From Saccoglossus kowalevskii (lineage: Eukaryota > Hemichordata > Enteropneusta > Harrimaniidae): a stretch of 23,874 nt of DNA. The notes beneath the pieces were generated by a model. The model was not told the origin of the DNA, made no database searches, and saw only the letters and a program-made list of their open reading frames with translations. Where the stretch lies: positions 486,724 to 510,597 of the forward strand of contig NW_003141807.1 in the NCBI RefSeq assembly GCF_000003605.2, written 5' to 3'. Shown here piece after piece: positions 1 to 23,191 of the stretch (positions are counted from its first letter, which is position 1; the number at the start of each line of letters is the position of its first letter). Both the position numbers and the translations under genes were made by a program.

Positions 1-1744
1 TGACATCAGCAAAAAATTGTTATTCAAAAACATCTTACAAAAGGCTCATTACAAAAAAGCGAAACAGATAACTATTACGCATTGAATGAGTTCAGTTGTT
101 CGTATTGTGATGTTATGTTTCATGATACCAATGTGAAAGCTGTAAAATGTAACATTTAAGGGAGCATTAACGGGAGATGGACATATGTAAGGCACATAAA
201 CGTTTAATTAATTTATATAATAAGCGTTTATTATAACTATTACAAGATAATTAACTGCACAACTAATGTACGCTAATGGATCTATCCATCGTTATTATAA
301 AGAATGGCAATTCCGAAGCAGCTCTAAGTTAGCTGTTCAAATCCAGGTATGTCAATCCATACAAACAAACATAATAACAACTTGAATTGTATGATAATTA
401 ATATTGTCAGACAATTTATTCTACAACTAGAAGGCAATCCGATAGCGCATACCTCCACTACAGAATCAAGTAACTTATTCTTACATATATCTTACATATA
501 CTGTGTGTGTCCTTTATATGACAGAACACCTTTATCATATTGACATAAGCTTCTAATATCGTCTTATAAAAGACGGAACAAATTTGTATTGAATAGTTTA
601 CGAGATTGACGATTTCTGAAAATTCAAGAGCAGCTGGAAGCAGATATTATGTAAATTCTTATGTCAGGGGATATTCATACTGAAAATGTTTGTTACCATA
701 AAAACCTGATAAACATCTCTACTACTTTAGAAATTTTACGAGAAAGGATTATTACCTTCGTAAGTAATAAATTAAGTAATTCTCAAAATTGACATGGCTA
801 GAAAATACAACTGCTATCAAAAGCTCAATGGTGTTCAACCTTAGTGTCAAATTTATTAGAAGATCATTTTTTCGGAACTTAAATCCTGTCATGAGGAATA
901 AATGTATGGATGACAGAAAAAGTGAAGTTATAAATATTAACCACAATCAATATATATTGTCCATGTAAGTGATTTTTATGTAATATTTGAAAACAGTAAA
1001 TGATCACATCATATACCGTATTTTTAATTTAGGGATATATTATTACATGCTAATGTTGAATGTGCTTATTGTCAAATTTAAGATAATAATCATAATTATT
1101 GTACTCAATCATTTAATGTTCATTTCATTCACATTTATATGTGTTAATAATGTATTTTCCCACATTTGCCCGCTGAGGTATCCTTCTGTTACTGCTCCAC
1201 TAATTTTCACAAACACAAAGGCAATGTCTGTGTGTTTATAATGCAGGCGGCCATATTTCTGTTTTCACAAAACATTTTGGAGAACATAAACGTTTACCAG
1301 CCAATACAGCATATTTATTTTATCTGCTACGAAAATAAAATCCGTTTTTGAACGACATTATCTTCTAATAATCGAAACATAAATCATATATCACCAGCAA
1401 TCTACGACAGTTAAAATATACCAAAAATGATGCAACTGAAATGCATTTGGTATTAATTGTTATTAGGATGAAAGTGGGTAGAAGATAATGTAAAATCGAC
1501 GATCATTTTAGAATTAGTATCTTGGGTAGTATTGACTATTCACTAGAATGACTTACTCAGACTGACAGCATGAGAACCAACTTTTATTACGTATAATATT
1601 AATAATTGCGACATTATTTTAATCATTTTCTCAGTGATGGTATGTAATGACCCCGGCGAAATTTTACGCAAACATTATTTGTGTAATTTGGAATAATTAT
1701 TTTCTAGTCTTTTCATTTCTGACTGTCCATCTTTAATATGTAGT

Positions 1745-1906
1745 GTCATTGGGAGACTTATCTTGACAATTGTTGGTTCTTCTTGTTCTACATATCACTG
1801 TGCCGACACATGTCACGGTTTAGCCCATATACTTTCGCAAACTAAGGGCTTTGATCCGCGGTATATCAACAAGATCTTATTTGGACCCATCAACATGCCT
1901 GAATGA
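1745..1906 (+). other. Conserved open segment of unknown nature, copy A
   Basis: The frame starting at 1745 is open to a TGA at 1904 and includes CSTYHCADTCHGLAHILSQT and FDPRYINKIL. Copy B has the same frame at 16264-16464, open further because of a 1-nt difference. Cys and His positions are kept. It may be an exon scrap of another gene or an old repeat. I do not recognise a family, and no splice sites clearly bound it. Confidence 0.3.
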
Positions 1907-2142
1907 GTTGCACAAGCTTATTTTTATGAGTTCAACACTAAAGTGATAAATTGTGTACCTAAAAGGTGTATGACCTTATATTTTTGTTCGATAATAAATC
2001 AGATCAGTGCCCTATGTCCTTAAACGCTGACAGCGTAATTCGTCTATTTATGAATGTTGTTTGTCGAGGGAGTATCATTCGTTCGTGTCGCGAGTTAACT
2101 AACTGGTGCCTTTCTGTACTAGCAGATTTCAATTGATCCATA

Positions 2143-2157
2143 TGACTCATTGACTCA
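2143..2157 (+). promoter_or_regulatory. Paired TGACTCA (AP-1/TRE-like) motifs, copy A
   Basis: TGACTCATTGACTCA holds two TGACTCA heptamers one base apart, about 1.44 kb upstream of the start codon. The pair and its flank ('ccatatgactcattgactc') are unchanged in copy B. TGACTCA is the known AP-1/TRE core. That it controls this gene is inference. Confidence 0.4.
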
Positions 2158-2822
2158 CTAAGCGACAGCCTACATAGAGTTGTTTGTCGAAACGAGGTCA
2201 TAATACTGCCTAAGTGTCATTATTGAGAAATTTTGAAGACAGAGGATGAAGGACCACCAGGACGCATACTAATCAAGGTCACTGGTAGGACACCATATAC
2301 TTCCCCATTCGTTTCTGTACGGTCTAAAAACCTTTGAATGAATAATTTGGGCTGTTCAATACCTACCATTCGAGTTGTGAATGAAAAAAATATTCAATGT
2401 ATAATTCAATTCTGGAATTGCTCAGATGTGTACAGTATTAGTTAGGAATGTATTGACTCCAGCAACACGGTTATTTACGCGATTACTGAAACACTTCCTG
2501 TGGAACAGAAAACAGGAAAAACAAAAAAATGTATCAACATTGTGACATGACCTTTCTCACACTTAATTATACTGCATATGATATGTTGCAAAATTGACAT
2601 TAACGTTTTGTCATTTTCTGGCGGCCAAAGTCACGTGACTGCTAAAGCATTAATTCGTGAAAAAGGCAGCCAATATAGCAATGTTATAGCAACAAAACAT
2701 GATATGACATGAAAAGTCTCAGAAGTAGAGAAATCGAACCCTCGAACTAATATAGCTGGGAAAAGCCGTGACATACATGAATTTTCAAATATTTGGCCTA
2801 AACGTTCCAGAGAAAATGATTT

Positions 2823-2930
2823 TTAAAGCGCGGTGGTCGTCGCGCAGCGCTTGAATTTCATGTAAATAAACAATGTATTTTACACGCGTTGTATACGTCG
2901 CTATGCGGCACGACGACTGCCGCCCTTTAA
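2823..2930. mobile_element. TTAA-flanked MITE-like element, 108 bp
   Basis: The segment begins TTAAAGCGCGG and ends CCGCCCTTTAA. Its two ends form an imperfect inverted repeat of about 25 bp sharing GGTGGTCGTCG-like and CGACGACTGCC-like cores. TTAA at both ends suggests a TTAA target-site duplication, as made by piggyBac- and Kolobok-type transposases. It is much more GC-rich than its surroundings, has no coding capacity, and is absent from copy B. Confidence 0.55.
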
Positions 2931-3548
2931 GAATTTTGTGTTATTTTCAGTTAATCCAGTATACTTTTTTGAAGATAATATTGTTTTTCAAAATTCGCAA
3001 GTTAAAAAAATGAAACAAACGACTGACAACAAAACAATCCACGAGAACAAAACAATCAACAAGTACACTACATCATGTATTATACTACATAGTTAATTCA
3101 GTATATGAAACATATATGGATACCATTATTTACACGAAGTTGTAAAAGTTGTTGACATGACAGTAAATCAGTTTGAGTAGTAGCAAATAACAATACAATT
3201 ATACGACGTTGTGGTACTGAAATGAAGATAATAAAGATTACAGTAACTTTACGACCTTGAAAATACTTGATATGACGTCAGTATAGTGGCATGTTTAGTG
3301 GTTGTCAGGTCAATAGTTCGTTGATGAAAATACTTCAATTGCGCTATTTTTGTCTTAAAACTAGTAATATGTCTATACATAACGACTACAACGACAAGGT
3401 GTGGTATTTCTGACCATCTATTTCTCATCCATAAAACTCAATAACAGTAAGTACAATAGAAAATATAAATAAAAAATAGTGAATACAATAAATAAAGTGT
3501 AAATGCTGTACAACGCAATATAGATAATTTCATATTTGTTTATTTTAG

Positions 3549-5186
3549 AACAATTATTCAAAAAACATTCACATCATCCAAGAAGAATGGGAGCAAACTT
3601 ATCAAAGAATTCAGGCTTGGACCAGAGATTGGGTGACAAATATTGTTATTCAGAATTGAAGATGCAAGAGCAATTGCGCCATGCGTGGGACACTGACGAC
3701 ATGTCTTCATGTATGAAGGTTTTGAAGGATGGGTTCACTGCACAAATATGCAAAGACAAACATAAACGATCGTCACATATCACCATGGATGGCATTAGGG
3801 GAAAGATGATGTATCACACTGGGGTTCACGTCTTTCGAATCAACTGTCCCAAAAATAGGCGAGGCAAAGATACTATGATTGGAGTAGTGACTCCCCAAGC
3901 ACCTATGGAATGTCAAGATAACTTCCCACTTCTTGGTGCTACTGAAGACTCATGGGGCTGGAATCTCACTAACAATAAATTATTTCATGGTGGTGAAGAC
4001 GTCGGTGTTTATCCGTCTGGTGGCTCCTATGTAGTGCCAGATAGTATATATATGGCTTTAGATTTAGATAATAGAATTGTGAGGTGAGGATATTGAAAGG
4101 TTATACCACTCCCGATGATTGTTAAGCTGTTTAAACAATTTGTATTTAATCCAATATGACCACCAAGCCCTGTGACCAATTTCGGTACATGTTTTTGTCA
4201 TGTATAACATTGAATTATTTTCGATTCAGATAAAACATTCACAAGTTAAACAAATTGTAATTAATTTTGAAATTTGTGCCGTAAATCCAAGATAATCACA
4301 TGTTAATATAATTGCAAGAAAGAATGACACGGCATTAAATTATGAGGCACTGATTTGCTAATGATGCGGCTAAATTGCTCATAATGTAGCCATTGTTTCC
4401 TGTGGCAAAACCTTTTTAATGTAGCTACTTTGTTAGCAAAATAGTGTCTCATACTATAATATCGACGTTCAAACATTTCTCGCTGTCACAGCTGTCATTG
4501 ATTACAAAACATATGGTACACCACATTAATTTCAATTTATAAAGCATTAGTAATTACGAGTAATGGAGCTCTTCCTGTTTGTATTTAATTCAAGTTGGCG
4601 GCAGATGCCCCAAAACCAAGTTTCAAATCAATGTGGTTAGTGGTTCAAACTGATTGATAAGTGTTGCTAAGTGATAGCCCACATTTCAATAATGCCAAAA
4701 CACAGTGACAAATCATAATTTTGCATTATTTGAAAACATTCTGTTCAGCTCTATAGACCATTTTAACATTTTAAGCAATAAGAATATATAGTATTATTTA
4801 CATTATGCTTTCCCGTTCTATATGATTTGTGTACTCCCTACTCGATCAGATATTTATGCCAGATTATTTAGTTTCGGGGTAGGTCTCCTAGTGGCAGAAA
4901 GCAGAGATTGCCAATCAGATGATTCGATTCCACTGAACATGTTAAAATGTAGAAAAATGAGAATACGTATAAGTTCATGCCTAGAAACATGTCGTGTAAC
5001 AGTAACATATATGACAGACGCCGACTATAGTCTTTTTCCCTGGATTTTTTTTTTTTAGTTTTCGTGATGATCGAAATAACTTGGGAGTGGCCTTTAGTAA
5101 GATACCATTATATACAATACTATGTATTGCCGCCTGTACATCAAGTTATCAGTGTAAAATTAAAATGATATATATGGGAACAGAGA
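3549..5186 (+). CDS. Copy A exons 1-2: N-terminus and SPSB-like SPRY domain
   Basis: Exon 1 spans 3549-4083 (coding from 3587) and exon 2 spans 5059-5186. They join in phase 2. The protein matches SPSB-type SPRY domains segment by segment: DGIRGK, GVHVFRI (SPSB 'GLHVWQI'), a short basic RRGKDTMIGV, DSWGWNLTNNKLFHGG (SPSB 'ESWGWDLGRNRLYHDG'), VPDSIYMALDLDN, then FRDDRNNLGVAF and CKIKMIYMG. The SPSB peptide-pocket segment 'VWG' appears to be replaced by Ser/Tyr (TSSYQC), so the ligand probably differs. No SOCS box follows; the chain runs straight into an NHR domain. The acceptor of exon 2 follows a pure T tract. The intron between them (4084-5058, 975 bp) shows no other gene. Confidence 0.88.
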
Positions 5187-8100
5187 GTGAGTATGCGCAT
5201 TGTTTAATTTGCTTACGATCGAATTACAATATATTAAATATATTCTTGGAGCATTTGGAGTTGAACTTGTATTCTGTGAACTAAATCGCGACTATTTTCA
5301 TGTAAATAATTAAAATATCAATTAATATTAGCACGTATCCCTCCACCGATTGGTGAAAGTTACTATACATTTGACACCAATTTCAATGAATATATGGAAA
5401 TCACGTTTAGTGGAAGAGTTGCCGTGGGACAAAGGTAAACCATACTAATAAATATTTACATGTTTTTTTCAAAACTCTGTATGGTATATGTGTTTCTGAT
5501 GTATTTCGTATATTTACTTTAAACCGTATATCATGGTTACATATATACATATGCATCAGCTTATTAGATAACTATGATAAAAGACGGATTTTGACAAGCA
5601 ATCCGCTCAGGATTGATGAGATGTTTGAGGTTCGTGTTGATGCTGTGGTCCCAGGACAAAACAAAATTCTTGAGATAGGAATCACAACAAAAACGGGCGA
5701 GATATGCATGTGGTCTGGTTTACACGTGTTTGAGAATGGTCAACCGATTTTAGAAGTCCAGAAAAATCTAGATGACGCCACGGTAAGATTGTTTTTGCAT
5801 ATATGTTCATTTGATAATTCGACATTTAAAACCATGACACACAATTTCTAGCGTTTGGGAACGATTTAGGTATTGCAATATACGGATACACGGATTGGAG
5901 CAACAGAGATGCAACGAATGTGTATTTTCGCCTGACTTATATGCCTAGTATGTCTATCCAGACAGGTGATACAATCGGAGTAGAACGACACAGAGATGAC
6001 TCAATTAGTTTTTATTTCAATGGTGAGACAATTAGCAATAAAATACAATTGGAAAGTAGACCACATGAAGTGTATGGTTCCATTGAGATGTGTGAAGAGA
6101 CGCATAGGGTCACTATTTGTCGTGAGTACCGGTAGTTTTTTTCATTGTATGTTGCATTTGAATAAAAAATCACGGGAGGGGAAAAAAGAAAGTTTCGTTT
6201 ATAATCCATAGTAAAACCACTATTTGTATTTTACACACACAATAGGCAACACCACATTTATTACGTACGTACATTTTATGAGAACCATTGCCACAATTGT
6301 GATTCGTGTGCCAAGTGCCACTAGTTAATTTATCATTGTTTTGAACTCGCATTGTAAGTGTCAGGAATTTTTTATTAAAAGATTTGTTGAACTTCTCGTT
6401 AGTATTTCATATTTCATGTTCGTGAACCGGCAAAATTACATCTATGCTATGTATTCCGGGAATTATTGTCGTTCACAGACAAAGAATCAAATATATTAGT
6501 CTAACAAAACTACTAATAAAAATAAACAACGAGTAACACTCCCACTAAGTGACATTATGATGTTTTCTAGCGTTGAAAGTTTAGTTCTTGTAGAAATATC
6601 ATTTTTGATTACAGACAAGTTACCTTGGTCATTGAGTCACTAATTTGGGTAAGGCACGACAAGACATACAGTATCACGGCAATGCTGTCTAACATGTAGA
6701 TATCATCATAGATATTACATCTGTTGAGGCATGACGGAAAAACCTCCAATACTTACTGTCGTTAGATTTGAATTTCACAACATTATTTACACCATTTTTA
6801 GCGAAGTAAAATGCAGTAAAACGTCTAATGCACACCCCGTGTGGATTTTTCAGCGATGATCAGGTCGTATATAAGATATAACATCCGTACTACACAAAAA
6901 AGGTAAAGATCTAAAAAAAAGAAAACTTCTGCGGTGTCAACAATAATCACACAATTGAAATCACACAATTGGAACTATATAAAGAGATAAGCTGAGAAAC
7001 TGTTTTTTTTCAGACTCCTACAAATCAGGTAATACCAAACGAATCGTTGGGGTAACATGGCGCCAACCGCACCTAATTATACGTAAAATGTAGAATACAT
7101 TCCTGGGGTATTTGAAACCAAATTTATCGTTCAACTGAAAGACTGTCACTGATTGTCGCTCCTTGCATACGATAATGTATGATCCGACAACAAATTTAAA
7201 AAAAAATCATACAGCTAAATTGTTGGTTTGGTTTGCTGACTGTTTTACCAATGTGCGTTTACGAAACGTTATGTCGCCTGGTGCAGTATGTATCCCATTC
7301 GTGACTAAATCCAGATCAGAAAAATCGGTTTCACAGTTATTGATTTTTTTTCAGCATCCAGTATATCCAGTAATACACGTGAAACTGACACAAGCGTGTT
7401 AAGAGATACAATACAACAATGTGATCCAAATGCTGCGATGTTTAAAATGAGACAGACGGTTCAAGCATTAAAGGATGATATGTTTTCAACTGTTGAGGAA
7501 AAACTTGATGCCGTGATATCAAATATCCACGACCCGATCAAATATAATCCAGATGTAAATACACATCGATTATTTGGAGATCACCTAGCAAAAATTGGCG
7601 CAGCAGAAGAGCTAACAAAACTGTTGAAAGCAATAATAGATATGAAACTCTACTCTAAGTATGTATCTGGTGTGAATGTTATTTGCATCACATGTTTGAA
7701 CCTCTGTGATGAAAGTTTTCGGATCAGTAGAGCATTCTGCCAGTGTGGATTGTGATATTAATCATTTTACTTGGAAAGTTCAACATTCATAAAGATTTAA
7801 GAAATGAGGTAGGTCTAATTACTCTATGTTACAATTATACAAATTATGATATTGTCGACTTAGTGTAGTATGATTCCCTGATCTTTTTTTGTATTTTGCA
7901 GAAAATCCGATCATTGGTGTGGACGACACTTGGAATTATGTACAACTGTGTAAAATTGTCTGAGAATCAAACATTTTTTGCAAACCAGGCTATTGTAGAG
8001 TGTCTGCTACCTTTTACCGAATCACACACAATGATAATATCTATTACAGCAATGTTAGTTTTAACCACCATATCTCATGAACACACATATATAGTTACAG

Positions 8101-11068
8101 ATGACGCAATACGTTACCTCTTAAAATTACTCAAACGAGCTTTCAGTGCACACGATTTACGAGTTGTGACAGATGTCGCATCGTTATCCGCATATGAAAT
8201 AATGACTGGATTGGCAAACTTTGCCAGCGATGAAACGAACAACGAGCACATGGTTAAAAATGGATGTCTTCCTATTTTTGTTGACATTCTTCGGAAAGGA
8301 GATAAACCTGCACATGAATGCATATGCTATATTCTTTGGTCCCTGGCAATGATGGGTTGCTTTAAAAGGGAAATCCAACAAGAGAAAGGGTTGAACAAGG
8401 CCTTAACAGACATCATGGAAGGAAGTAATGGTTATCTAAAACATTTAACAAAATGTCTTTTTGATTCCTTAACAGGTAAGTGACAAATCTCAAGGTTATT
8501 GTAGAGCTTGAACTAAACAACACTAGTCACATTCAAAATATGGTTTTCTTTCTTGCAATAATCACAAATTCAAATATATATGATGTATTTTTATTTTTGT
8601 TGTAATATATGTTCATTTAATTCATAAGCAGTTACTGGGAGGAGAGGTCCATGTAAATACAAAATGTTGTGTGAGCGGTATAAGAACTCATTAAAATTAT
8701 CAGGTAAGTTCTGTTATCTGAAATAAAACTTATTCAGGAGCAATCAAAAAACTTTCTACCAGTGACTTTTATCTGATTCTTTGCTCTAGAGGAATTCTTT
8801 GACAAACGATATAACATGTGTTACTGTGCTTCGTGTCACGTTGAAAGAAATGACAAGCTATATTATTTGCGGGGAAAACCAGCACGCCCATATGCTCTCC
8901 CAATCGGCTGGTGCAGATTTGCACTCAAGTAAGTAATCACCAATGATATGGCGTTTTAATTATTACGCAATATATAAATATTTGCATGTGATGTAACGAT
9001 TACTCCAACACGCTAGGATATACATAAGTTTTAGGGAACTCTTAGAAAGAACACAAATATCGCCGCCAATATGCAACATCATTCGAAAAACGTTAATGCA
9101 ATAAATCTAAAATAAATTCTTCTTATGCTTAATGTGTGTTTGTGTGAATTAATAATAAAACATGTTAAGCCTAACTATTATGCGTTTGGTATACCTCTAC
9201 AGAATCCCATGTCGAGCAGGCCCACTCGATATTTTTACTAAGTGGCATGTTGCTTTCCATGGTACTCAAATACAGAGTGTTAAACCAATTTTGGAATCTG
9301 GAGGCTTATGTATTCCTGGCAAGTAATTATATAATTTATAACAATTAATCAAGTGTTGTACTTCATACGTTTCGCGCATAATTGCTTAGAGCATGATTGA
9401 ATTGTGGCACATTCCCGTAATCTGTAGATGTTTAAATTGTTAAAATTATAAAACATTTTTGTGTGATTAATTGTGAACGTATTTGATTTGTAAAAATATT
9501 CTTTTTTGATGAGTTATATTATCTATATGTATGAGTTATATGATAGTTATAGTATATGAGCCATATTGTGGTTAACTGACATTATATTGTTTGTCATTTT
9601 TTAATAATGTACACTATATTGTTTAATGTATACAGGTGACGCATTGATGGGTGCCGGGAAATTGAAAGTACGTGAAGGACATTTTTCTTCAACTAGGAAA
9701 CCCGAAGGTTTTGATTATAAACAGATATTCTTGTCGCCAAGTATCAGATATTGTAAGCATAATGCTTATGCAAAAATAGCTAGGTAAGTTTTGCTATAAA
9801 ACTTGTATTTTCTCATACATATATATGTAAGAGATTATTTTTTGTGCTATACTTAGTTGCATTGTAATAAAATTGAAACGTGCTTTCAGAACAGTGTGTC
9901 GTGCTGCGTTGCTACGTGGTAATGACAAAACCCCACTACACTGGACTTGTTATTTGCTTGAGACAGGAGTGAGTGACAATGCATTATAGAGGAACGCCGT
10001 GCACTCACTATTATACACACTGTTTTGTTTGTAAGTTAAACAAAGTGAGGATGTAACATTGACGTTTAAATACATAGAAAGCATAATTGAAGGGAAGGCT
10101 TATCAAATCGATGTTTCGTCCACACAATCCAGTCGATGTCCAGTATTTCTCTCGGTGAAAATTAATTGAACTTAATCATTGTCAGTTGCCTCACAGTGTC
10201 CCTAGAATTTGAAATATAATAGAACAATTGCGCGGATTAGAATACTAAGGCCACCGACAATCGAAACCAGCAATTACAGCACATCACATAATAATGCACA
10301 AAAACAGAACCATATCATTACATTTGCTTCAGCGTCAGAGTAAACTGACCCCAGAAACGAAGAGTGATCGAGTATACAAACGATCACAGTCATGACTTTG
10401 ACTCAGATACATTTTTTCGGACACTTCTCCTATTGGAAATAACAATTTTCAAACTGCTGATATCTATTTTAATATTTCATGTTTTATCGTTATCATTCTA
10501 AGAGCACATTTGTTGTGCAATTTAAGAATGGGGGAATTGCAATATATTTGAAAGAAATGTTTAACGTTTTATAATGTTTGCATATACTGTCCTTTCATTT
10601 GTAATAGAGTAACATTGTATTCGTTTCAACTGAATATATTGTTGTTCTCATTAATGTCGATAGCGCTTCATTTAGGAAACGTACATACATTAATCTATTC
10701 CGTAAATTAGCTTGTATATATGGTTACTCATTTGAAATTTGTCAATTGTGTACAATTTTTTGCCCCCTCCCCCATAAGTCGAGTATTACTCAGCGTTGAG
10801 CATATATGTAATACGTTTATTATTTCACATTTACAGTTTTCTAGATGAGAAAACCAAGAAAACATACAATTCTAAGGTAGCGTTTCAGGTTAGAATCCTA
10901 CCAGGCAGTTACACCGTTGGCCAAGAAACAATTGGAGCAAAGTCTACAATTGATCGCATGTTTGACAACCGGGAAATTGAATGGTGTACCAAAGAACGCC
11001 CGAGTGTAATTTTGACTGGGTTACTCGTCAATTTAAGGGTTATTGATGAAGAATATGAAATTGTTTAA
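3587..11068 (+). CDS. Copy A gene: SPRY-NHR-helical repeat-ART protein, NEURL4-like
   Basis: Predicted coding exons: 3587-4083, 5059-5186, 5332-5434, 5584-5782, 5962-6121, 7014-7028, 7355-7808, 7902-8475, 8632-8703, 8790-8928, 9203-9318, 9636-9783, 10837-11068 (stop TAA). All junction phases agree and all introns are GT-AG except the GC-AG intron starting at 9319. Restoring the one frame loss, the length would be about 946 residues. Domains: MGxxxSK N-terminus, SPSB-like SPRY (about 40-210), NHR (about 210-362), ARM/HEAT-like helices (about 385-710), Cys-rich linker (about 711-782), ART-like domain (783-946). The start at 3587 was chosen for its Kozak context (A at -3, G at +4) and the myristoylation motif; the frame stays open back to the acceptor at 3548. 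A net 4-nt loss near 7755 in exon 7 brings an immediate stop, so this copy may be a pseudogene, a sequencing error, or a truncated SPRY-NHR protein. The family name comes from recognising the C-terminus; the full architecture differs from vertebrate NEURL4, which has six NHR domains. Confidence 0.85.
4084..5058 (+). other. Intron 1 of copy A gene
   Basis: 975 bp from a GTGAGG donor to an acceptor after a long T tract. It aligns with 18230-19282 with several indels. A short open frame at 4822-5058 runs into the exon but is disrupted in copy B, so I treat it as chance. Nothing else is recognised. Confidence 0.7.
5332..6121 (+). CDS. Copy A exons 3-5: neuralized homology repeat (NHR)
   Basis: Exons 5332-5434, 5584-5782 and 5962-6121. 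NHR landmarks in order: an N-terminal YTFDTNFNEYMEITFSGR strand region, RRILTSNPLR (the 'R.S.F..G..FS.RPL' position), EVRVDAVVPG, LEIGITTKTGE (NHR '.RLGFT..DP'), MWSGLHVFENG, then GDTIGVERHRDDSISFYFNGE, the most diagnostic NHR segment ('GD.VGV....G.L.F.VNG'), and VYGSIEMCEETHRVTIC. In other NHR proteins 'NLD' is followed within a few residues by 'GD.VGV'. That supports starting exon 5 at 5962 (acceptor 'ctatccag') and not at the earlier 'tttctag'. NHR domains bind substrate proteins in ubiquitin-ligase adaptors. The domain ends in phase 1 at a GTGAGT donor. Confidence 0.86.
6122..7354 (+). other. Introns around the microexon, copy A, with TATA-like motif
   Basis: DNA between the NHR and helical-repeat exons, holding the microexon at 7014-7028. 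CTATATAAAG at 6975-6984 is conserved at 20958-20967 and lies about 30 bp upstream of the microexon acceptor. It could be an internal promoter for a shorter protein without SPRY and NHR, or simply A/T-rich intron. Nothing else recognised. Confidence 0.45.
7014..7028 (+). CDS. Copy A microexon, 15 nt
   Basis: A 15-nt segment flanked by a strong acceptor ('ttttttttcag') and a donor ('gtaata'). Copy B has the same arrangement at 20994-21008. Inserted in phase 1 between the NHR exon and the helical-repeat exon, it adds five in-frame residues (HSYKS in A, HSNKS in B, counting the split first codon). Skipping it also keeps the frame, so it may be alternatively spliced. Confidence 0.6.
7355..8475 (+). 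CDS. Copy A exons 7-8: ARM/HEAT-like helical region, frame broken
   Basis: Exons 7355-7808 and 7902-8475 join in phase 0. The product is rich in amphipathic helices with ARM-like phrasing, such as 'GCLPIFVDILRKGDKPAHE' followed by 'CICYILWSLA', and 'RLFGDHLAKIGAAEELTKLL'. I see about five or six helical repeats but cannot assign them to one Pfam family. Compared with copy B, exon 7 lacks four bases in two 2-nt steps near 7754-7760, so GGA TTG runs into TGA. Downstream the old frame resumes and exon 8 is fully open for 191 codons. That pattern fits a recent lesion or a base-calling error better than an old pseudogene. In NEURL4-type proteins this region would be a protein-binding scaffold (inference). 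Confidence 0.82.
8632..8928 (+). CDS. Copy A exons 9-10: Cys-rich linker and GWCRF motif
   Basis: Exons 8632-8703 and 8790-8928. The first encodes VTGRRGPCKYKMLCERYKNS. The second encodes EEFFDK, then YNMCYCASCHVER (a CxCxxC-like cluster that could bind zinc), then YALPIGWCRFALK. I recognise the GWCRF segment and the Cys cluster as the entry to the C-terminal domain of NEURL4-like proteins. The exon 9 acceptor is a tandem NAGNAG ('aagcag'), allowing one extra codon (Ala) if the first AG is used. The last exon ends in phase 2 at 'aa|gtaagt'. Copy B's counterpart ends at the same base, after which the copies soon diverge. Confidence 0.83.
9203..11068 (+). CDS. Copy A exons 11-13: ADP-ribosyltransferase-like C-terminal domain
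   Basis: Exons 9203-9318, 9636-9783 and 10837-11068. The domain reads WHVAFHGT...ILESGGLCIPG, then KQIFLSPSIRYCKHNAY, then VAFQVRILPGSYTVG and FDNREIEWCTKE. These correspond to the three parts of a PARP-like H-Y-E centre: His in FHGT, Tyr in SIRY, and Glu in the NREIEW strand. Human NEURL4 has been reported to have mono-ADP-ribosyltransferase activity, which agrees. The substrate here is unknown. The first donor is GC instead of GT (CCTG|GCAAGT); using it gives the expected IPGDA join, whereas the nearby GT gives a stop. The last intron (9784-10836) is 1053 bp. Stop TAA is at 11066-11068. I see no canonical AATAAA in the next 400 bp. Confidence 0.85.
9784..10836 (+). other. Last intron of copy A gene, with possible alternative exon
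   Basis: 1053 bp from GTAAGT to 'tttacag'. At 9890-9968 there is an exon-like stretch with a good acceptor (tgctttcag) and donor (GTGAGT). It continues the upstream phase with 26 open codons but its 79-nt length would break the frame of the final exon. Read through, it ends at TAG soon after. No other gene seen. Confidence 0.45.
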
Positions 11069-13249: not shown

Positions 13250-14608
13250 TTTGCTCTCGAGTAACGCACAAGCTATGAAATATAAACTGCATAAGCTGGT
13301 GATGTAGGAATGTTGCTATCGATATATGGAATGTTTAATAGCAAAATTAAAATCGTCACGCTTGTCATACAGCTTAGTATGCAGTTTTCAACTGCTGTCA
13401 AATTCGAGTAGTAGATCAAGATATGAAGCATAAATCAGTGTGACAGGAGTATCCTTAATTTGAAGTTCATTGGGATAATTAGTATGTAAATAACTACTGA
13501 ACTGTCGTCTTCAGTATACCTCTGTCTTGAATCTGTACGATTTTGAACAAAGTAGCAAGATATACGATTTGAGACTAAATACTTATATCGACGTCTACCA
13601 TTTTTGTAAAAGAAACATTGAACAATTAAATCCTTAAGCCTGTTTTTAAGTTGGGAATGTGGTATAAAGTGTGGAAAATGATATGTGTGTATATTATGGA
13701 TATTACTGAGAGAACGAGATTTTAAATTCTCCAGCAACTCTTTTGAGTTTTTCAAAATCGACATCTGATTAACCCCACTATGTGTATAAATCCTATTGCA
13801 ATATTTATGTAAGCTCTTCTTGACTGCAGTGAGTAGTGTTGTTGATAGCTTAAAAACTGGTTTTGTGAAACACTTACAGACCTAGCAATATATCTTTGTT
13901 CATAAGGGCACTTATGAAGTTTAGGTGTCCAGTAGAGAATTGCTCAGTTTTATAACCCGTTTACTATGAATATTACTGACGTTGATGGCATCGATGCCTT
14001 TGTTCAAACCAAAACATTTTCACAAAGGAGCATTTTGACTGCGATGTTTCTGCAGTACAGACAGGGTTAAATAATCTATTCCTGCCAATGTCTAAAACTA
14101 TTGAGATTAACCAATAAACCTTTAATAAACACGTCATGCCCATGGCTAGGTGACTTGTGGAAGAGATCCATTACATTGACTGAACTTCAACCAGGACTAG
14201 TAAGATTACTTGCACTGTCGATCTTGTCATTGCACCCATAAGGTGAAGCAGTACCTAACTCTCGAATCCAAAATTCTGCACTACCTCTGCTGAAATAGTG
14301 TACTCAACTGGGGACTGTTCATTGGGGTGATAGATTTTCTCATAATGCATGGAGAAAATGGAATGGTCTTGTTGGTTAAAATGCTGATATACCAGCTGAT
14401 TACCGCCATGAGTAATTTCGAAAATGTGACCGTTCATTCTCTTATTTAATTGTCCGCCTGTTTCACCCACGACAACAAGACCACAGAGTATACACTCTAT
14501 ACCATAACTAATGTTGGTTGGTTTGCAAGTAAGATCCTCCCGGACATTATCTATTAATCTAAGAAACGATTTATGACAGAAACTTAAACTAAAAATGTCT
14601 AAAATCAA
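13250..14608 (-). mobile_element. Decayed Penelope-like retroelement, Naiad-like domain order
   Basis: Read on the minus strand, a GIY-YIG endonuclease comes first (14608-14255): YGIECILCG, then VVVGETGGQLNKRMNGH, then HFNQQDHSIFSM and a C-terminal FG. A linker follows (about 14103-13977) with LDIGRNRLFNPV and FVKMFW. Reverse-transcriptase pieces come next (about 13830-13435): KYCNRIYTHSGVNQ, IPHSQLKNRLKDL, YKNGRRRYKYLV, YTEDD and an IPM motif. Further on (about 13345-13250) is PYIDSNIPTSPAYAVYIS, a thumb-side segment. Canonical Penelope elements have the endonuclease after the RT; here it precedes it, and a CxxC sits inside the GIY-YIG core, as described for Naiad elements. It is interrupted several times and the catalytic palm segment is not visible, so it is an inactive, moderately old copy. 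Confidence 0.75.
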
Positions 14609-14754
14609 CTACAACTAGAATACTATATTAAAGCCTTTTTGAACTATTATTTCTTAGCCACGGTATCCACAATTATCAACAAGTTTTTTATAATCAAATA
14701 ATTAAATTAAGGGTTTTTAATATTTTTATTTCCAATTAATAGTTACATAATTTG
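14609..14754. other. Short A/T-rich spacer
   Basis: Between the retroelement fossil and the left edge of duplication copy B. It is very A/T-rich and has no recognisable feature. Confidence 0.5.
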
Positions 14755-16263
14755 TTAGTCAAAGAGATCCCATAAAAGGCTCATTAAAAAAACAGATACG
14801 CATTGAATAAGATTAGTATTGTGATGTTATGATTCAAGATACTAATGGGAAAGCTATAAAATTTAACATTTAAGGCAGCCTTTACGGGAGATGGACAACT
14901 TTAATGCACATACATGTTTAATTAAATCATATAATATTAATTTATTATATCTATTACCAGCAATTAACTGTGCAACTAACATACACGAACAATGGATCTA
15001 TCCATCCATTGCTATGATAAGAAATAAAAATTCTGAAGCAGCTCTAAGTTATCAACTCCATGTATGTCAATCCATACAAAGAAACATAATAACAAATTGA
15101 ATTGTATGATAATTAATATTGTCAGACAATTTATTATAAAACTAGAAGGCAATCCGAAAGTACAAACTTCCACCACAGAAACAAGTAACTTATTCTTACA
15201 CATAACTTTAACATACTGTGTGTGTCTTTCATACGACAGAACACCTTTACTATATTTACATAAGCTTCTAATATCGACTTATAAAAAGAGGGAACAAGTT
15301 TTGTATTGAATAGTTTATGAGATTGTCGATTCCTGAAAATTCTATAGTAACTGCAAACAGGTCTCATGTAAAATCTTTGGTTAACAGTTTAAAATAATGC
15401 TCAAAATTTCTGTTACCATGAAAACAGGATAAACATCTGTACTGCTTTAAAACTTCAAAATTCAGAATTATTAACTTTGTAAGTTATAAATTAAATAATT
15501 CTCGAAATGTCCTTGCCAGAAAATACAACTGCGTTTAAAACCTCGATGGTGTCCAACCTTTTTATCAAATCCAGTAGAAGATCATCTTTTCGGTACTCGA
15601 ATCTTTACGATGACGGAACAAGTCAACTTATAAACATTAACCACAAACTAGTATATAATGTATATGAAAGTGGTTTCTGTGTAATTTAGGGATATATTAT
15701 TACTTGCTAATGTTGAATGTGCCTCTTATTGTCAAATCTAAGATTATAATCATATTAGTGTACTGTTTCGCAATTTATGGGATAATAAAGGATTATACTT
15801 AAAATTACTATTTTTGAAAAATTGTTCTCGTCACATTCATTTAATGTTCATTTCATTCACATTTATATATTACATTTTTTCATATTTGCCCGCTGAGGAT
15901 TTTTTCTGCACTAATCTTCATGAATACAAATACAAAGGCAATGTGTGTGTGTTTATAGAGCAGGCGGCTATATTTCTGTTTTCACAAAACCTTTTTTTCT
16001 GCTACGAAAGTGAAATACAAGTTATTGAATGACATTATCTACTAATGATCGAAATCGAAACATAAATCATATACCACCAGCACTAGTATTGACTTTTCAT
16101 GGGAACGAATTACCTAGATTGTCAGCATGAGAACCAACTTTCATTACTTCTTCCCAATATTAATAATTGCGACATTATTTTAATCATTTTCTCAATGATG
16201 GAAATTTTATGCAAACATTATTTGTGTAGTGTGTAATAATTCTGTCCATCTCTATTGTGTATT

Positions 16264-16464
16264 GTCATTGGGATACCAATGTTGGCTACTGTTGGATCTT
16301 CTTGTTCTACATATCACTGTGCCGACACATGTCACAGTTTAGTCTATATACTCTCGCAAACTAAGTGCTTTGATCGGCGGTATATCAACAAGATCTTAAT
16401 CGGACCCATAGCATGCCTGAATGAGTTGCACAAGTTAATTTTTATGTGTTCAACACTAAAGTAA
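16264..16464 (+). other. Conserved open segment of unknown nature, copy B
   Basis: Counterpart of 1745-1906. It reads CSTYHCADTCHSLVYILSQT, then FDRRYINKIL, and ends at TAA after SLK-like residues. It lies about 1.3 kb upstream of the copy B start codon. No function can be given. Confidence 0.3.
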
Positions 16465-16493
16465 TACATTGTGTACCTAAAAGGTGTATGACC

Positions 16494-16562
16494 TTATATA
16501 TTTGTTCGATAATAAAATACATCAGTATTTTATATATTTGTTCGATAATAAAATACATCAGT
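16494..16562 (+). repeat. 36-bp tandem duplication
   Basis: The unit beginning 'ttatatatttgttcgata' occurs at 16494 and again at 16530, with the second copy running to about 16562. Copy A has only one unit (about 1977-2010), so the duplication happened after the segment was copied. Confidence 0.8.
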
Positions 16563-16634
16563 GCCCTATGCCCTTAAACTGTCAGACTCGCTGACAGCGC
16601 AATTCGTCTATTTATGAATGTTGTTTGTCGAAGT

Positions 16635-16662
16635 CGGTCCTTCGGTCCTTCGCGGTCCTTCG
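16635..16662 (+). repeat. GGTCCTTCG short tandem repeat
   Basis: Three GGTCCTTCG units with a two-base spacer before the last. Absent at the matching place in copy A. Confidence 0.75.
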
Positions 16663-16753
16663 TTTTAGTGAGTACCCGAAGGAGTACCATTCGTTTGTGT
16701 CGCGAGTTGACTAACTGATGCCTTCCCGTACCAACAGATTTCCTTGGTCCATA

Positions 16754-16768
16754 TGACTCATTGACTCA
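16754..16768 (+). promoter_or_regulatory. Paired TGACTCA (AP-1/TRE-like) motifs, copy B
   Basis: The same paired heptamers as at 2143-2157, about 980 bp upstream of the copy B start codon. Conservation in DNA that otherwise carries many small changes is the only support for function. Confidence 0.4.
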
Positions 16769-17692
16769 CTAAGCGACAGCCTATACATAGAGTTGTTTGT
16801 CGAAGCGAGGTCACAGTGCAGCCTAAGTGTCATTATTGAATGATTTTGAAGACAAAGAAGAAACACCAGGGCACATACCAATCAAGGTCACTGGTAGGAC
16901 ACCATATACTTCCCCATATGTTTCTGAACGGTCTATAAACCTTTAAATGAATAATTTGAATTGTTCAATACCTACCATTCGAGTTGTGAATGAAAGAATA
17001 TTCAATGTATAATTCAATTCTGGAATTGATCAAATGTGTACAGTATTAGTATTACAGTAACACGGTTATTTACGCGATTTCTGAAACATTTTCTGTGGAA
17101 CAGAAAACAAAAAAATGTATCAACATTATGACATGACCTTTGTCACACTCAACTATACTGCATATGATATGTTGCAAAATTAACATTAATGTTCTGTCGT
17201 TTTTCACGTGACTACTAAACCATTAAACAGAGCACTTCCGGGTTGAAAGGATTACATTATCATAAAGATTACAGTGACTTTATAACCTTGAAATAGAGTT
17301 TGGCATGTTTAACTGTAAATGCTGTACGTAGATTCTTGAAGCCAAATTTCAGATTCAGGTTGTTTTTTTTTGGGGGGGGGGAATCGAATGTCACGTGACC
17401 GTAAACATTGTTATACATGAAATCTTTAACTAATGTGGCTGTCATACTGTAACACAAGATCAGATTACTTAAACCTCGGAATATAGCACTTCCTGGTTTT
17501 CTTAAAGCGAGTATGCCACACTACTTTACCCATTAAACAAATTGTAAGAGTTACAGTAGTGTTGTATATATGCTAATATTTTCATTAACCTTTCAACCGC
17601 ATAATGCACAGTTTTCCAATCTAATATTCTAAGTAAATTGCACAAATAATGTATAGAATACATGTAGATCATTTCATATTTGTTTGTTTTAG

Positions 17693-19410
17693 AACATTCG
17701 TTCTACAAAAACATTCACATCATCCAAGAAGAATGGGAGCAGACGTATCAAAGAATTCAGGCTTGGACGAGAGATTGAGTGACAAAGATTGTTATTCAGA
17801 ATTGAAGATGCAAGAGCAATTGCGCCATGCGTGGGACACTGACGACATGTCTCCATGTATGAAGGTTTTGAAGGATGGTTTCACCGCACAAATATGCAAA
17901 GACAAACATAAACAATCGTCACATATTACCATGGATGGCATTCGGGGAAAGAAGATGTATCGCACTGGGGTTCACGTCTTTCAATTCAGCTGCCCAAAAA
18001 ATAGGCGAGGCAAAGTTACTATGGTTGGGATAGCGACTCCCCAGGCACCTATAGAATGTCAAGATAACTTCCCACTTCTTGGTGCTACTGGAGACTCATG
18101 GGGCTGGAACCTCACCAGCAATAAATTATATCATGGTGGTGAAGATGTCGGTGTTTATCCGTCTGGTGGCTCCTATGTAGTGCCAGATACTATTTATATG
18201 GCTTTAGATTTAGATAATAGAATCGTGAGGTGAGGGTTTAATATTTAAAGGTCATAACACTTCCGATGATTGTTAAACTGTTTAACCAATTTGTATTTAA
18301 TCCAATATGATCACCAAACCTTGTGGCCGTTTGTTTTGCATGTATAAGAATGGCGCGGCAAAATTAAATTATGAGACACTGATTTGCTAAATTGCTTTTT
18401 GTGTATGTAGCCATCGCTTCCTGTGGCAAAACTTTGTGTAATATTTGTTTGCAATACACTGTCTCATACTAAAATATCGACGTTCAACTATTTCTCGTTG
18501 TCGCGGTAATAGCTATTATTGATCTCAAAAAATAAATATATGGTGCACCATTAATTTAAATGTATAAGACATTTGAAATTATGAGTAATGGAACTCTTTC
18601 AGTTTGTATTCAATTCACGTTGACGGCCACATCAGGCGTAAAGCAGTTCATAAAAATGTATGCATCTGACACATAGAGGCCCGAAACCAACTTTCAGATC
18701 AATGTGATTAGTTGTTCTAACTGACTGTTAAGTGTTGTTTGTGAACTTGGTAGCCATATGTCAATAATGCCAAAACCCAAATTTTAGTTTGCCTAGAGTC
18801 ATGTAACAAGTATGTCCGGCAAACACAGTAACTAATCGAAAATCACGTGCACCTAATTTACATTAGTCCCTAATAACATAGAAATTTGAAAATATTCTGT
18901 TCAGTTTACAACAAACGACACAACATGTGGAAGAAATAAACCTGAAAGATGATCACAGATCTCCATAGATATTTTCCGCAATAATAGGAATAATTTTAAC
19001 ATTTTACGCAATAATAAATAGTATTGTTTTATGTGTCCAGTCTTGAAATTTTCCGCTCTATCCGATTTGTGTAATTTCGATTAGATATTTAAACCAGGAT
19101 ATTCAGTTTCGGGATATGTCTCTTAGTGGCAGATGTCAGAGCTTGCCAATCACATGGTTAGATCCAGACTGAGCATGTTAAAATGTTAAAAAAGTGCACA
19201 AGTACAAGGACATATATAGAAAAATGTAACAGTAACATATACGACAGATGCTGACTGGAGATTTGTTCTGGTTTATTATTAGTTTTCGTGATGATCGAGC
19301 AGACTTGGGAGTGGCCTTTAGTGAGATATCATTATATAAAATACTATGTATTGCCGCCTGTACATCAAGTTGTCGGTGTAAAATTAAAATGATATATATG
19401 GGAACAGAGA
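17693..19410 (+). CDS. Copy B exons 1-2: N-terminus and SPRY domain
   Basis: Exon 1 is 17693-18229 with ATG at 17733, exon 2 is 19283-19410. The N-terminus is MGADVSKNSG, which keeps the MGxxxSK signal although residues 4 and 5 differ from copy A. SPRY landmarks are all present: GIRGK, GVHVFQF, DSWGWNLTSNKLYHGG, VPDTIYMALDLDN, LGVAFSE, CKIKMIYMG. The putative pocket segment is TSSCRC here against TSSYQC in copy A, so the ligand-facing loop differs between the copies. The 1053-bp intron between the two exons shows no other gene. Confidence 0.87.
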
Positions 19411-22400
19411 GTGAGTATGCACACTGTTGAATTTACATTTGACTTAAAATATATTCAATAATATTATCCAATTTGCATTCGAACTTATATTTTTGTACTG
19501 ATTAGCACAACCACTTTCATGTAAATAATTAAAATATCAATTATAATTCTAGCACGTATCCCTCCACCGATTGGTGAAAGTTATTATACATTTGACACCA
19601 ATTTCAATGAATGTATGGAAATTACGTCTAGTGGGAGAGTTGCAGTGAGACAAAGGTAAAATATACTAATTAATATTTACATGTTTTTTCAAAATCCTGT
19701 AAGGTATGTGATTCTAATGTATTTCGTGTATTTTTATGCCGTATATTAATGGTTATATGTATATATATATATATATATATATGCATCAGCTTATTAGATG
19801 ATAATAGACGGATTTTGACAAGCAATCCGCTCAGGACTTGTGAGCTGTTCGGGGTTCGTGTTGATGCTGTGGTCCCAGGACAAAACAAAATTCTTGAGAT
19901 AGGAATTACAACCAAATCGGGCGAGATATGCATATGGTCTGGTTTACACGTGTTTGAGAATGGTCAACCAATTTTAGAAGTCCAGAAAAATCTAGATGAC
20001 GCCACGGTAAGTTTTATGTTTGCACGAATGTTCATTTTATAATTCTACATTAAAATCATGACACACAATTTCTAGCGTTTGGGAACGCAATATACGGATA
20101 CACGGGTTCGAACAGCTGCAATACAACGAATGTGTATTTACGTCTGACCTATATGCATATGTCTTTCCAGACAGGTGATACAATCGGTGTAGAACAACAT
20201 AGAGATGACTCAATTAGTTTTTATTTTAATGTTGAGGCAATTAGTAATAGAATACAATTGAAGAGTAGACCACATGAAGTGTATGGTTCCATTGATATGT
20301 GTGACGAGACTGAACGGGTCACTATTTGTCGTGAGTAGCAGTTGTTTCTCATTATTTGTTGCATTTGACTATAAATGGAATCATGGGAGGGGGGAAAGTA
20401 AGCGGCGTTTCCATCCTAACATTAATATGGTATCATACCCAGACACATATACGCTATAGACTAGATTTATTATGGATATAACCCAAATAGAAAACTGGAT
20501 CAATACATTGTTTTGATGAACAATTCACACTATAAGCTTTTTCAACTGTTCTCTTTTAAGAAATGTCATGATTATAATGTCACCTAGACTCGCATTGTAG
20601 GTGTCGAAAATTCTTCATTATGAGTCTTGTTACACTTCTCGTAAACATTTCATATTTTAATTGTTCATGAACCCACCATATTACATTATGCTATGAACTC
20701 TGGGAAATAGTGGCGCTCGCAGACCGAGAACCAAATATATTCGTGGAACAAACAACAAATAAATAATAATTCTCAGCAATGGCCAGGTCGTATAAGAGCC
20801 TAATAATCGTACTACACAACAAAATGTACAATCTAGAAAAGGAAATACTTCTGCGGTGTCAACATTTAGCATTCTATCATAGCTGGCGTACAAGAAGTAA
20901 TAGAATAATGTGATTAATTAATTATATAGGGTCAGTCATCTTGAATACGGCTTGAAACTATATAAAGAGACAAGTTGAGAAACTGTTTTTTAGATTCCAA
21001 CAAATCAGGTAAAAATACCAAACTTTTACAGCAAAACGATTTGTTGTAGTAACATTAGGCCAAACGCGTGTGTGGAAAAGTTCCTTGCACCTCATTATAC
21101 GTAAAACCTAAAACACATTCCTGGGTTATTTAAAACCAAATTTATCGTCAAATTTATCAACTGAAAGACTATCGCTGATTGTCGCTTCTTATGATAATAC
21201 GATAATGGTATAATCCGGCGCGTTGGAATCTGACACCAAATTAAAAAAAAAATCATACAGCTAAACGGTGAGCCGGTTAGATGACTGTTTTACCAATGTG
21301 CGTTTACGAACCGTTATGTCATCTGGTGCAGTACGTATCCCATTCGTGACTAAATCCAGATCAGAAATATCGGTTTCACAGTTATTGATTTTTTTCAGCA
21401 TCCAGTATATCCAGTAATACACGTGGAACTGACACAAGTGTGTTAAGAGATACAATAAAACAATGTAATCCAAATGCTGCGATGTTTAAAATGAGACAGA
21501 CGGTTCAAGCATTAAAGAAGGACATGTTTTCCACTGTTGAGGAAAAACTTGACGCCGTGATATCAAATATCCACGACCCAATGAAATATAATATGGATGT
21601 AAATACACAGAGATTATTTGGAGATCACCTAGCAAAAATTGGTGCAGCAGAAGAGCTAACAAAACTGTTGAAAACAATAATAGAAATGAAACTCTACTCT
21701 AAGTATGTATCTGGTGTGAATGTTATTTGCGTCACATGTTTGAACCTCTGTGATGAAAGTGAACAAATCAGTAGAGCATTCTGCAAGTGTGGATTGCTTG
21801 ATACATTAATCATTATACTTGGAAAGTTCAACATTCATAAAGATTTAAGAAATGAGGTAGGTCTAATTACTCTATGTTTCAATTATACAAATTATGACAT
21901 TGTCGACTTAGTGTAGTATGATTCCCTGATCTTTTTTTATATTTGCAGAAAATCCGATTATTGGTGTGGACGACACTTGGAATTATGTACAACTGTGTGA
22001 AATTGTCTGAGAATCAATACATTTTTTGCAAACCAGGCTATAGTAGAGTGTCTGCTACCTTTGACCAAATCACACACAATGGTGATATCTGTTACAGCAA
22101 TGTTAGTTTTATCCACCATACCTAATGCACGCAAAATTATAGTTACAGATGACGCAATACGTTATCTCTTAGAATTACTCAAACGAGCTTTCAGTACACA
22201 CAATTTACGGGTTGTGACAGATATCGCATCATTTTCCGCATATGAAATAATGACTGGATTAGCAAATTTTGCTAGCGATGTGGCGAACAACAAAAAAATG
22301 GTTAAAAATGGATGTCTTCCTATTTTTGTTGACATTCTTCGGAAAGGAGATAAACCTGCACATGAATGCATATGCTATATTCTTTGGTCCCTGACAATGA

Positions 22401-23011
22401 TGGGTTGCTTTAAAAGGAAAATCCAACAAGAGAAAGGGTTGATCAAGGCCTTAATAGACATCATGGAAGGAAGTAATGGCTATCTAAAACATTTAACAAA
22501 ATGTCTTTTTGATTCCTTAACAGGTAAGTAAAAAATCACATGGTAGCTGTAGACCTTGAAATAAACCACACTTGAGTGTTACATTTTGTAATCACATTCA
22601 AATAAACCAAAATATGGTTTTCCTCTTTGCGATAATTACAAATTCTAATAAATAAGATGGTGTAATTCACATTTGTTTAGTTGTAATATATGTTTATGTT
22701 TAGAAGTCACGGGAGAGAGAGGACCATGTGAATATAAAATGTTGTGTGAGCGGTACAAAACCTCATTCAAATTACCAGGTAAGTTCTGTTATTTTGAAAT
22801 CAAAACAATCCACTTATCAGAAGCGATGAGAAAACTTTCTACCAGTAACTTTTATCTGATTCTTTGCTCTAGAGGAATTCTTTGACAAACAATATAACAT
22901 GTGTTACTGTGCTTCTTGTCACGTTGAAAGAAATGACAAGCTATATTATTTTAGAGGAAAACCAGCACGCCCATATGCTCTCCCAATCGGCTGGTGCAGA
23001 TTTGCACTCAA
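17733..23011 (+). CDS. Copy B gene: SPRY-NHR-helical repeat protein, ART exons not in window
   Basis: Coding exons: 17733-18229, 19283-19410, 19553-19655, 19808-20006, 20171-20330, 20994-21008, 21399-21856, 21949-22523, 22704-22778, 22873-23011. All splice sites are GT-AG and phases match copy A. Exon 7 (458 nt) is intact here, which shows that copy A lost 4 nt. Exon 8 has 575 nt against 574 in copy A, because an extra T near 22018 (gaatcaaTacat) shifts the frame; the correct frame returns for the remaining 156 codons to the end of the exon. No counterpart of the three ART exons is found to the end of the window: the intron after 23011 runs into a hairpin and foreign sequence. Either a large insertion separates them, or this copy has lost its catalytic domain. 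Confidence 0.83.
18230..19282 (+). other. Intron 1 of copy B gene
   Basis: 1053 bp between the two SPRY exons. Alignable with copy A in patches, with extra sequence around 18630-18960. No gene seen. Confidence 0.65.
19553..20330 (+). CDS. Copy B exons 3-5: NHR domain
   Basis: Exons 19553-19655, 19808-20006 and 20171-20330, identical in length and phase to copy A. The diagnostic segment is GDTIGVEQHRDDSISFYFN with VEAISN following (FNGE in copy A becomes FNVE, so the turn glycine is lost). The acceptor of exon 5, 'tctttccag' just before 20171, is stronger than its copy A counterpart and supports the exon boundary. An (AT)n microsatellite lies about 25 bp upstream of exon 4. Confidence 0.85.
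19759..19783 (+). repeat. (AT)n microsatellite
   Basis: About eleven AT units in the intron just before copy B exon 4. Copy A has a short 'atatatacatatgc' there. Confidence 0.9.
20331..21398 (+). other. Introns around the microexon, copy B
   Basis: Counterpart of 6122-7354, holding the microexon at 20994-21008 and CTATATAAAG at 20958-20967. No other feature is supported. Confidence 0.5.
20994..21008 (+). CDS. Copy B microexon, 15 nt
   Basis: Bounded by 'ttttttag' and 'gtaaaa'. The length and the last eight bases (AAATCAG before the donor, with the preceding C) agree with 7014-7028. Of three base differences from copy A, one is synonymous and one changes Tyr to Asn in the assumed frame. Confidence 0.58.
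21399..22523 (+). CDS. Copy B exons 7-8: ARM/HEAT-like helical region, frame broken in exon 8
   Basis: Exons 21399-21856 and 21949-22523. Exon 7 is fully open and shows the intact version of the segment damaged in copy A, reading SRAFCKCGLLDTLIIILGKF before the donor 'gag|gtaggt'. Exon 8 opens with KIRLLVWTTLGIMYNCVKLS as in copy A, then an extra T near 22018 throws the frame out; from 22061 the homologous frame is open again to the donor. Only one lesion is visible in more than 1 kb of coding sequence, so decay is recent or the base is an error. Confidence 0.82.
22704..23011 (+). CDS. Copy B exons 9-10: Cys-rich linker and GWCRF motif
   Basis: Exons 22704-22778 (or from 22707 if the second AG of 'tagaag' is used) and 22873-23011. 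The encoded cluster is YNMCYCASCHVER followed by YALPIGWCRFALK, the same as copy A apart from a few changes upstream. The donor at 23012 is intact (aa|gtaagt), so a downstream exon is expected but is not seen before the window ends. Confidence 0.82.
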
Positions 23012-23050
23012 GTAAGTAATCACCAATGATATGGCGGTTTAATTATTTAA

Positions 23051-23191
23051 GCAATAACCCCCGCCGAAGGCGGGTATACCACGAGATATTGCACAATTCA
23101 CGACATATATGCACGAGCCGCAGGCGAGTGCATATATGGAGTGAATTGTGCAATATCAAGTGGTATACCCAACTTCGGCGGGGGTTATTGC
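23051..23191. repeat. 141-bp near-perfect hairpin (foldback element)
   Basis: The two 69-nt arms pair as stems of 19, 11, 17, 11 and 3 bp around a GCA loop. The stems are separated by four symmetrical 2x2 mismatches and are otherwise perfect. The outer stem is GCAATAACCCCCGCCGAAG with its exact complement at 23173-23191. The innermost part reads CACGAGCCGCAGGCGAGTG. Copy A does not have it at the matching place (near 8972), so it was gained in copy B or marks the edge of a larger insertion. No transposase is encoded in it. Confidence 0.9.

Follow-up and report, generated by a model that had tools for sequence, protein, structure and literature searches.

A Saccoglossus kowalevskii gene family that joins SPRY, NHR, armadillo-like and ART-like modules in one predicted protein

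A stretch of 23,874 nucleotides of Saccoglossus kowalevskii DNA (contig NW_003141807.1, positions 486,724 to 510,597; hereafter the window) raises the question of whether a myristoylation-like start, an SPSB-type SPRY domain, a single NHR, helical repeats and an ADP-ribosyltransferase (ART) domain can be parts of one protein, as a preliminary description of this DNA proposed, and, if they are, what such a protein might do.

Gene A and its intact paralog

Our analysis finds in gene A, which extends from 3587 to 11068 on the plus strand, 13 exons that encode a SPRY domain, one NHR, armadillo-like repeats and an ART-like domain. Splice signals are present at the junctions of all 13 exons, and the introns are GT-AG except for one GC-AG intron after position 9318. 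The exons are listed here, with reference to two paralogs, genes B and C, that are described below:

Exon 1, 3587-4083, plus strand: myristoylation-like start, MGANLSKN, followed by the greater part of the SPRY domain; open frame and donor site; Pfam SPRY at residues 81-205 of the spliced protein
Exon 2, 5059-5186, plus strand: end of the SPRY domain; splice sites, conservation with B and C
Exon 3, 5332-5434, plus strand: linker and start of the NHR; the Neuralized match of gene C begins at residue 235, in the equivalent exon
Exon 4, 5560-5782, plus strand: first half of the NHR; Pfam Neuralized at residues 248-370; splice sites
Exon 5, 5962-6121, plus strand: second half of the NHR; phase argument and gene C junction (see below)
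Exon 6, 7014-7028, plus strand: 15-nucleotide microexon, of which 13 of 15 nucleotides are the same in B; no separate exon found in gene C
Exon 7, 7355-7808, plus strand: helical repeats; net 4-nucleotide deletion relative to B; in-frame stop at 7753-7755
Exon 8, 7902-8475, plus strand: armadillo-like repeats, open frame; all-helical in an AlphaFold2 model
Exon 9, 8629-8703, plus strand: linker leading to the Cys/His segment
Exon 10, 8790-8928, plus strand: CYCASCH, a Cys/His segment that may be a metal site, and GWCRFAL
Exon 11, 9203-9318, plus strand: WHVAFHGT, the putative catalytic His motif; GC donor
Exon 12, 9636-9783, plus strand: KQIFLSPSIRY, the second ART-like motif
Exon 13, 10837-11068, plus strand: NREIEW, the putative catalytic Glu motif; stop codon

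Exon 5 had previously been started at 5851, which breaks the frame: exon 4 ends in phase 0, and the open frame that follows 5851 would have to be entered in phase 1, so this start was dropped. The corrected start at 5962 gives NLDDAT/TGDTIGV across the junction in A, and the equivalent phase-0 junction in gene C reads DLDTIV/IGDTIGI. The segment that thus falls to intron 4 (5851-5961, its 3' part) shows good conservation between the two copies A and B, apart from indels (12 and 3 nucleotides), and is open in one frame. It does not match the phase of exon 4; perhaps it is an old or alternative exon.

The five modules had also been placed in a single frame from 3587 to 11068. Their order stands, but the open frame does not, since the deletion in exon 7 shifts the frame and the stop at 7753-7755 follows; from exon 8 to exon 13 the expected frame is open. 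Other donors within exon 7 that would skip the stop were sought, and the only one, a weak GT at phase 0 (judged by eye), was not adopted.

A complete copy lies outside the window. A tblastn search of the flanks places gene C 3.4-8.9 kb upstream of it (contig C3272, 477825 to 483317), where the spliced product of 12 exons is an intact protein of 978 residues, with all of the modules in the same order as in A and B. The intron phases of gene C are those of A and B, and only the 15-nucleotide microexon was not seen. Proteins A and C are 34% identical in the N-terminal half (168 of 493 aligned residues) and 39% in the C-terminal half (166 of 422); taken separately, the Cys/His-ART part reaches 54% identity and exon 8 has 23%. 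The gene family with the fusion is real, gene C is its intact representative, and copy A in the window is not intact as assembled.

Gene B and the condition of the copies

The window holds a second copy of most of the gene, together with the traces of the duplication that gave rise to it:

Gene B, 17733-23011, plus strand: tandem copy of exons 1-10, with a 1-nucleotide insertion in exon 8 near 22016
Duplicated unit, 14749-23056, plus strand: nine pieces of it match 14-8972, with identities of 73-91% (self-BLASTN, pieces longer than 60 bp)
Palindrome, 23050-23192, no strand: 143 bp, matching its reverse complement at 86.7% identity; located where the duplicated unit breaks off on its 3' side, just past the last exon of B

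The flank search found no match to exons 11-13 downstream of B as far as the contig end; copy B has lost the ART core. A Collagen_bind match on B (0.0095, below cut-off) was set aside as stray. Between the copies, on the minus strand at 13435-14608, are ORF pieces that we take to resemble a Penelope-like element with a GIY-YIG-like end; no Pfam match there supports this.

The two copies differ in a way that points to selection on the protein. Over 771 codons dN is 0.060 and dS 0.125 (dN/dS 0.48), and nonsynonymous changes account for 103 of the 162 differences, against an expectation of about 126 based on the site counts (binomial p 2.4e-5 against neutrality); this dN/dS calculation excludes about 20 nucleotides at the deletion in A and any codon that has a gap or yields a stop. 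The introns, intron 5 excluded, differ at 17.5% of aligned sites. These values indicate that A and B have been under protein-level constraint since their divergence. In SPRY exon 2 (5059-5186 in A, 19283-19410 in B) the balance is opposite to the ratio of the other exons, with about 8.5 nonsynonymous and 0.5 synonymous changes, too few to test.

Could it be, nevertheless, that the family is decaying, that most copies, A and B included, are pseudogenes left by duplication, and that only gene C, and perhaps the copy at locus C1808, works? The frameshift in A would agree with this, as would the insertion in B and its want of exons 11-13, and the SPRY exon (exon 1) of the copy at locus C2502, which shifts frame as assembled. 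On the other hand, the dN/dS of 0.48 is a mark of constraint since divergence, and the frame lesion in A is the single one in 2.86 kb of its coding exons and could be an assembly error. With such a ratio, either the loss of frame was recent or the indels are assembly errors, and the further frameshift in C2502 means that assembly error has to be taken seriously. It may be that several copies are pseudogenes, or else that the lesions are indel errors of the assembly; that decay accounts for the family at large we consider doubtful.

The domains of the predicted proteins

The starts of five genes were read, namely MGANLSKN in A, MGADVSKN in B, MGNHKSKS in C, MGNVEGVS at C1808 and MGNLESAL at C2502. 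All five have the form MG[N/A]xx[S/G] or MGADVS and fit, by eye, the PROSITE N-myristoylation pattern; beyond the MG pattern the first residues of A, C, C1808 and C2502 share little. The myristoylation signal noted earlier can thus be retained, by pattern, as a myristoylation-like MG start. Two observations weigh against a myristoyl reading: the SPSB-like gene in this genome likewise has an MG start (MGQKVS), and for B there is a further in-frame ATG ahead of the start, at 17649.

Pfam searches bear out both the SPSB-type SPRY domain and the single NHR of the preliminary description. SPRY is above cut-off in A (4.2e-13 on the spliced N-terminal part), B and C (residues 84-210, 5.3e-7), and so is Neuralized in A (7.3e-10), B (2.6e-8) and C (residues 235-397, 3.5e-16, full profile), with one NHR stretch in each of the three proteins. 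One of the six matches to exon 1 of gene C falls outside the family, in an SPSB-like gene at C1599 (36% identity, start MGQKVSGG) that we take to be an SPSB, although its SOCS box was not seen. There is no SOCS box among the Pfam matches of the family proteins, nor a RING, a TIR or a SAM domain.

The helical repeats reported earlier can tentatively be described as armadillo-like. AlphaFold2, given a 3-row alignment, models exon 8 of A as all-helical with 11 helices (mean pLDDT 72.3, pTM 0.71); the family matches of the helical part are weak (ARMC5 0.0034, Arm 0.037, also ARMC7), and those from Pfam lie below cut-off.

The exons of the C-terminal domain gave 29 matches in the genome, which we grouped by hand into 12 loci (A, C, C2502, C1808, C4067, C2921, two on C4171, C3979, C1001, C993 and C3981). 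Eight of the 12 were aligned; the C993 row is without the last part, and rows other than A and C are joined BLAST pieces whose edges are not at checked splice sites. The motifs CxC-x2-CH, [FY]HGT, F[LV]SP[ST]I[RK]Y and NxExEW recur wherever an aligned copy extends over them: the Cys/His segment has its three Cys and its His unchanged in all eight sequences, HGT is present in all eight, and ExEW in all seven that reach it. Among further loci, C3979 and C1001 keep ExEW and C4171:618781 reads ELVW. The putative catalytic triad, its positions assigned by motif only, keeps the H and the E and has F at the second (Y) position. The triad tripeptides of human NEURL4 are given in a section of PMC7955679 as HGS/LLS/ELE, and the HGT, FLS and EIE/ELE of the family parallel them.

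More general searches do not recover this likeness. The Pfam PARP profile matches two of the eight members at the HGT stretch (profile positions 49-85 and 49-73; E 0.12 and 0.28), with no match above cut-off and none at all in the other six members or in a hand-made consensus, and unrelated families are as strong or stronger in the same scans (Glyco_hydro_59_C 0.03, GFA 0.15, DND1_DSRM 0.17). PDB profile searches returned no ART, and hhalign against PARP1 gave a probability of 2.3, below the 10.4 of the SPSB-like control. The ART profile met 152 pattern stretches in viral contigs (none confirmed, and no exact matches to the WHVAFHGT coding sequence), 28 stretches in prokaryote genomes (none confirmed), nothing useful in phages or NCBIfam, and in PHROGs two matches (E 0.064 and 0.35) that led nowhere. 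NEURL4 itself is called only PARP-like in a passage of PMC10450202, and a list in PMC7955679 has it as undetected by Pfam, so negative sequence tests are unsurprising here. Of the ART domain that had been proposed, the NEURL4-like motifs are borne out, and an ART fold gains no support from Pfam, PDB profiles or hhalign; it is from the motifs that we infer the putative ART identity of the domain.

An alternative that accepts the fusion holds that the C-terminal domain is a dead ART-like module, or some other fold, and that the protein is a membrane-bound scaffold that joins SPRY and NHR ligands. The F at the second triad position (L in NEURL4), the minimal similarity to the PARP profile and the one locus with ELVW instead of ExEW all suit such a pseudoenzyme, and a part of PMC7955679 discusses ART-like pseudoenzymes with respect to LRRC9. 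Against it, HGT and ExEW are kept in every aligned copy that covers them, A and C are more alike in the Cys/His-ART part than in the N-terminal half or exon 8, and NEURL4, with its H-L-E, is described in a passage of the review PMC9149570 as responsible for mitochondrial ADP-ribosylation. The unrelated Pfam matches and the ELVW locus led us to rate an active enzyme lower and a pseudoenzyme higher than we otherwise would, and we judge the latter to be rather unlikely.

Distribution, relatives and possible function

The fused module order recurs at other loci of the same genome. By exon-level matches SPRY, NHR, ARM and ART lie in order at four of the 12 ART loci (A, C, C1808 and C2502), NHR, ARM and ART at two (C4067 and C2921), ARM and ART at one (C993), and ART alone at five; the genome searches score the best candidates only and genes are split by exon, so a missing module is weak evidence. 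At C2921 the NHR and ARM matches are 2.5 kb apart, with some parts unseen. The NHR match at C4067:354980-355195 lies inside a reported open frame of 3283 residues, which may be a run of N, and at C2917:907466-914802 there are three armadillo-like exon matches within 7 kb, with no ART match listed on that contig. Scoring of the best 12 candidates gave nine Neuralized matches in the genome, eight of them in the family and the ninth in a canonical-looking neuralized gene at C3046 (one-exon full-length NHR, with a RING-like ORF nearby, the RING judged by eye). No six-NHR NEURL4 is among these nine, though 12 loci have ART-like exons.

That the SPRY-NHR and ARM-ART parts are two neighbouring genes wrongly joined by prediction is very improbable: A has two introns (892 and 326 bp) between the NHR and ARM parts and a frameshift in exon 7, and some ART loci are without a SPRY or NHR match (C993 and the five with ART alone), but gene C splices into a single open frame, with an intron of 144 bp at this junction, the matches on either side of it at C1808, C2502 and C4067 are separated by gaps of about 95-165 bp, the junction (6121, 7014-7028 and 7355 in A) is phase-compatible in A, B and C with phase 1 on both sides, and a fusion kept over the distance between A and C with so short an intron is unlikely to be an artefact.

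We favour, with a probability of about 0.55, the reading that these genes form a small multigene family and encode a membrane-tethered, partner-recruiting, probable mono-ADP-ribosyltransferase composed of an MG start, an SPSB-derived SPRY domain, a single NHR, an armadillo-like solenoid, a Cys/His segment and a NEURL4-like ART, with gene C as the intact example. The shared module order, the intron phases in three genes, the protein-level constraint and the SPRY and NHR identities are established. In the mechanism that we envisage, the N-terminal glycine would be myristoylated and would anchor the protein at the membrane, the SPRY domain and NHR would capture short motifs of partner proteins, the armadillo-like part would serve as scaffold or gate, and the C-terminal domain would use NAD+ to mono-ADP-ribosylate the captured partner. 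The poor conservation of the helical part, with 23% identity between A and C in exon 8, was counted against this reading.

Among the closest known proteins, NEURL4 has six NHRs, no SPRY domain and no MG anchor. The family resembles it in having an NHR upstream of a putative C-terminal PARP-like ART (HGT/FLS/EIE here, compared by way of the published tripeptides) and is unlike it in having one NHR together with an SPSB-like SPRY domain and armadillo-like repeats; published accounts, in the parts that bear on this, place NEURL4 in the cytoplasm/cytoskeleton or the mitochondria. With SPSB1-4 and gustavus the family has in common the W-N/D-x-x-D-x-S, D-x-IRGK and SWGW stretches of the SPRY domain and the MG start, as represented by the SPSB-like gene at C1599, but its Pfam matches include no SOCS box and the W of that gene's VSAVWGH is missing in A and C. 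It is like Neuralized/NEURL1 (NHR and RING) in having an NHR above the Pfam cut-off and differs from it in the lack of a RING match. SARM1 is an ARM-SAM-TIR protein, with its ARM solenoid on the same chain as an NAD+-using effector; the family likewise would have an armadillo-like solenoid on one chain with a putative NAD+-using effector, but has no TIR or SAM match, and the effector resembles an ART rather than a TIR NADase.

By analogy with SARM1 one may go further and suppose that these are lineage-expanded, membrane-tethered, NAD+-using sensor-effectors, in which the SPRY domain and NHR would sense a ligand, the solenoid would gate the ART as ARM does in SARM1, and the released ART would mark host or invader proteins, an innate-immune-like ADP-ribosylation system that would be undescribed. 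We think this improbable and offer it as speculation. SPRY-like domains, Neuralized repeats included, are named in a portion of PMC8195603 as prominent in eukaryotic immunity, and an immune-like role is possible given the tandem copies and the several loci.

In the literature that we searched there was no description of a SPRY-NHR-ARM-ART architecture; the search did not extend to animal proteomes, and similar proteins may well have been deposited already without a name. Returning to the membrane-tethered transferase that we favour, the family, if active, would link two partner-recruiting domains familiar from ubiquitin ligases to ADP-ribosylation in one membrane-bound chain. It presents an SPSB-type SPRY domain in use without a SOCS box, and in gene C it offers a compact, intact gene with which the poorly understood NEURL4-type ART may be tested together with its recruiting modules.
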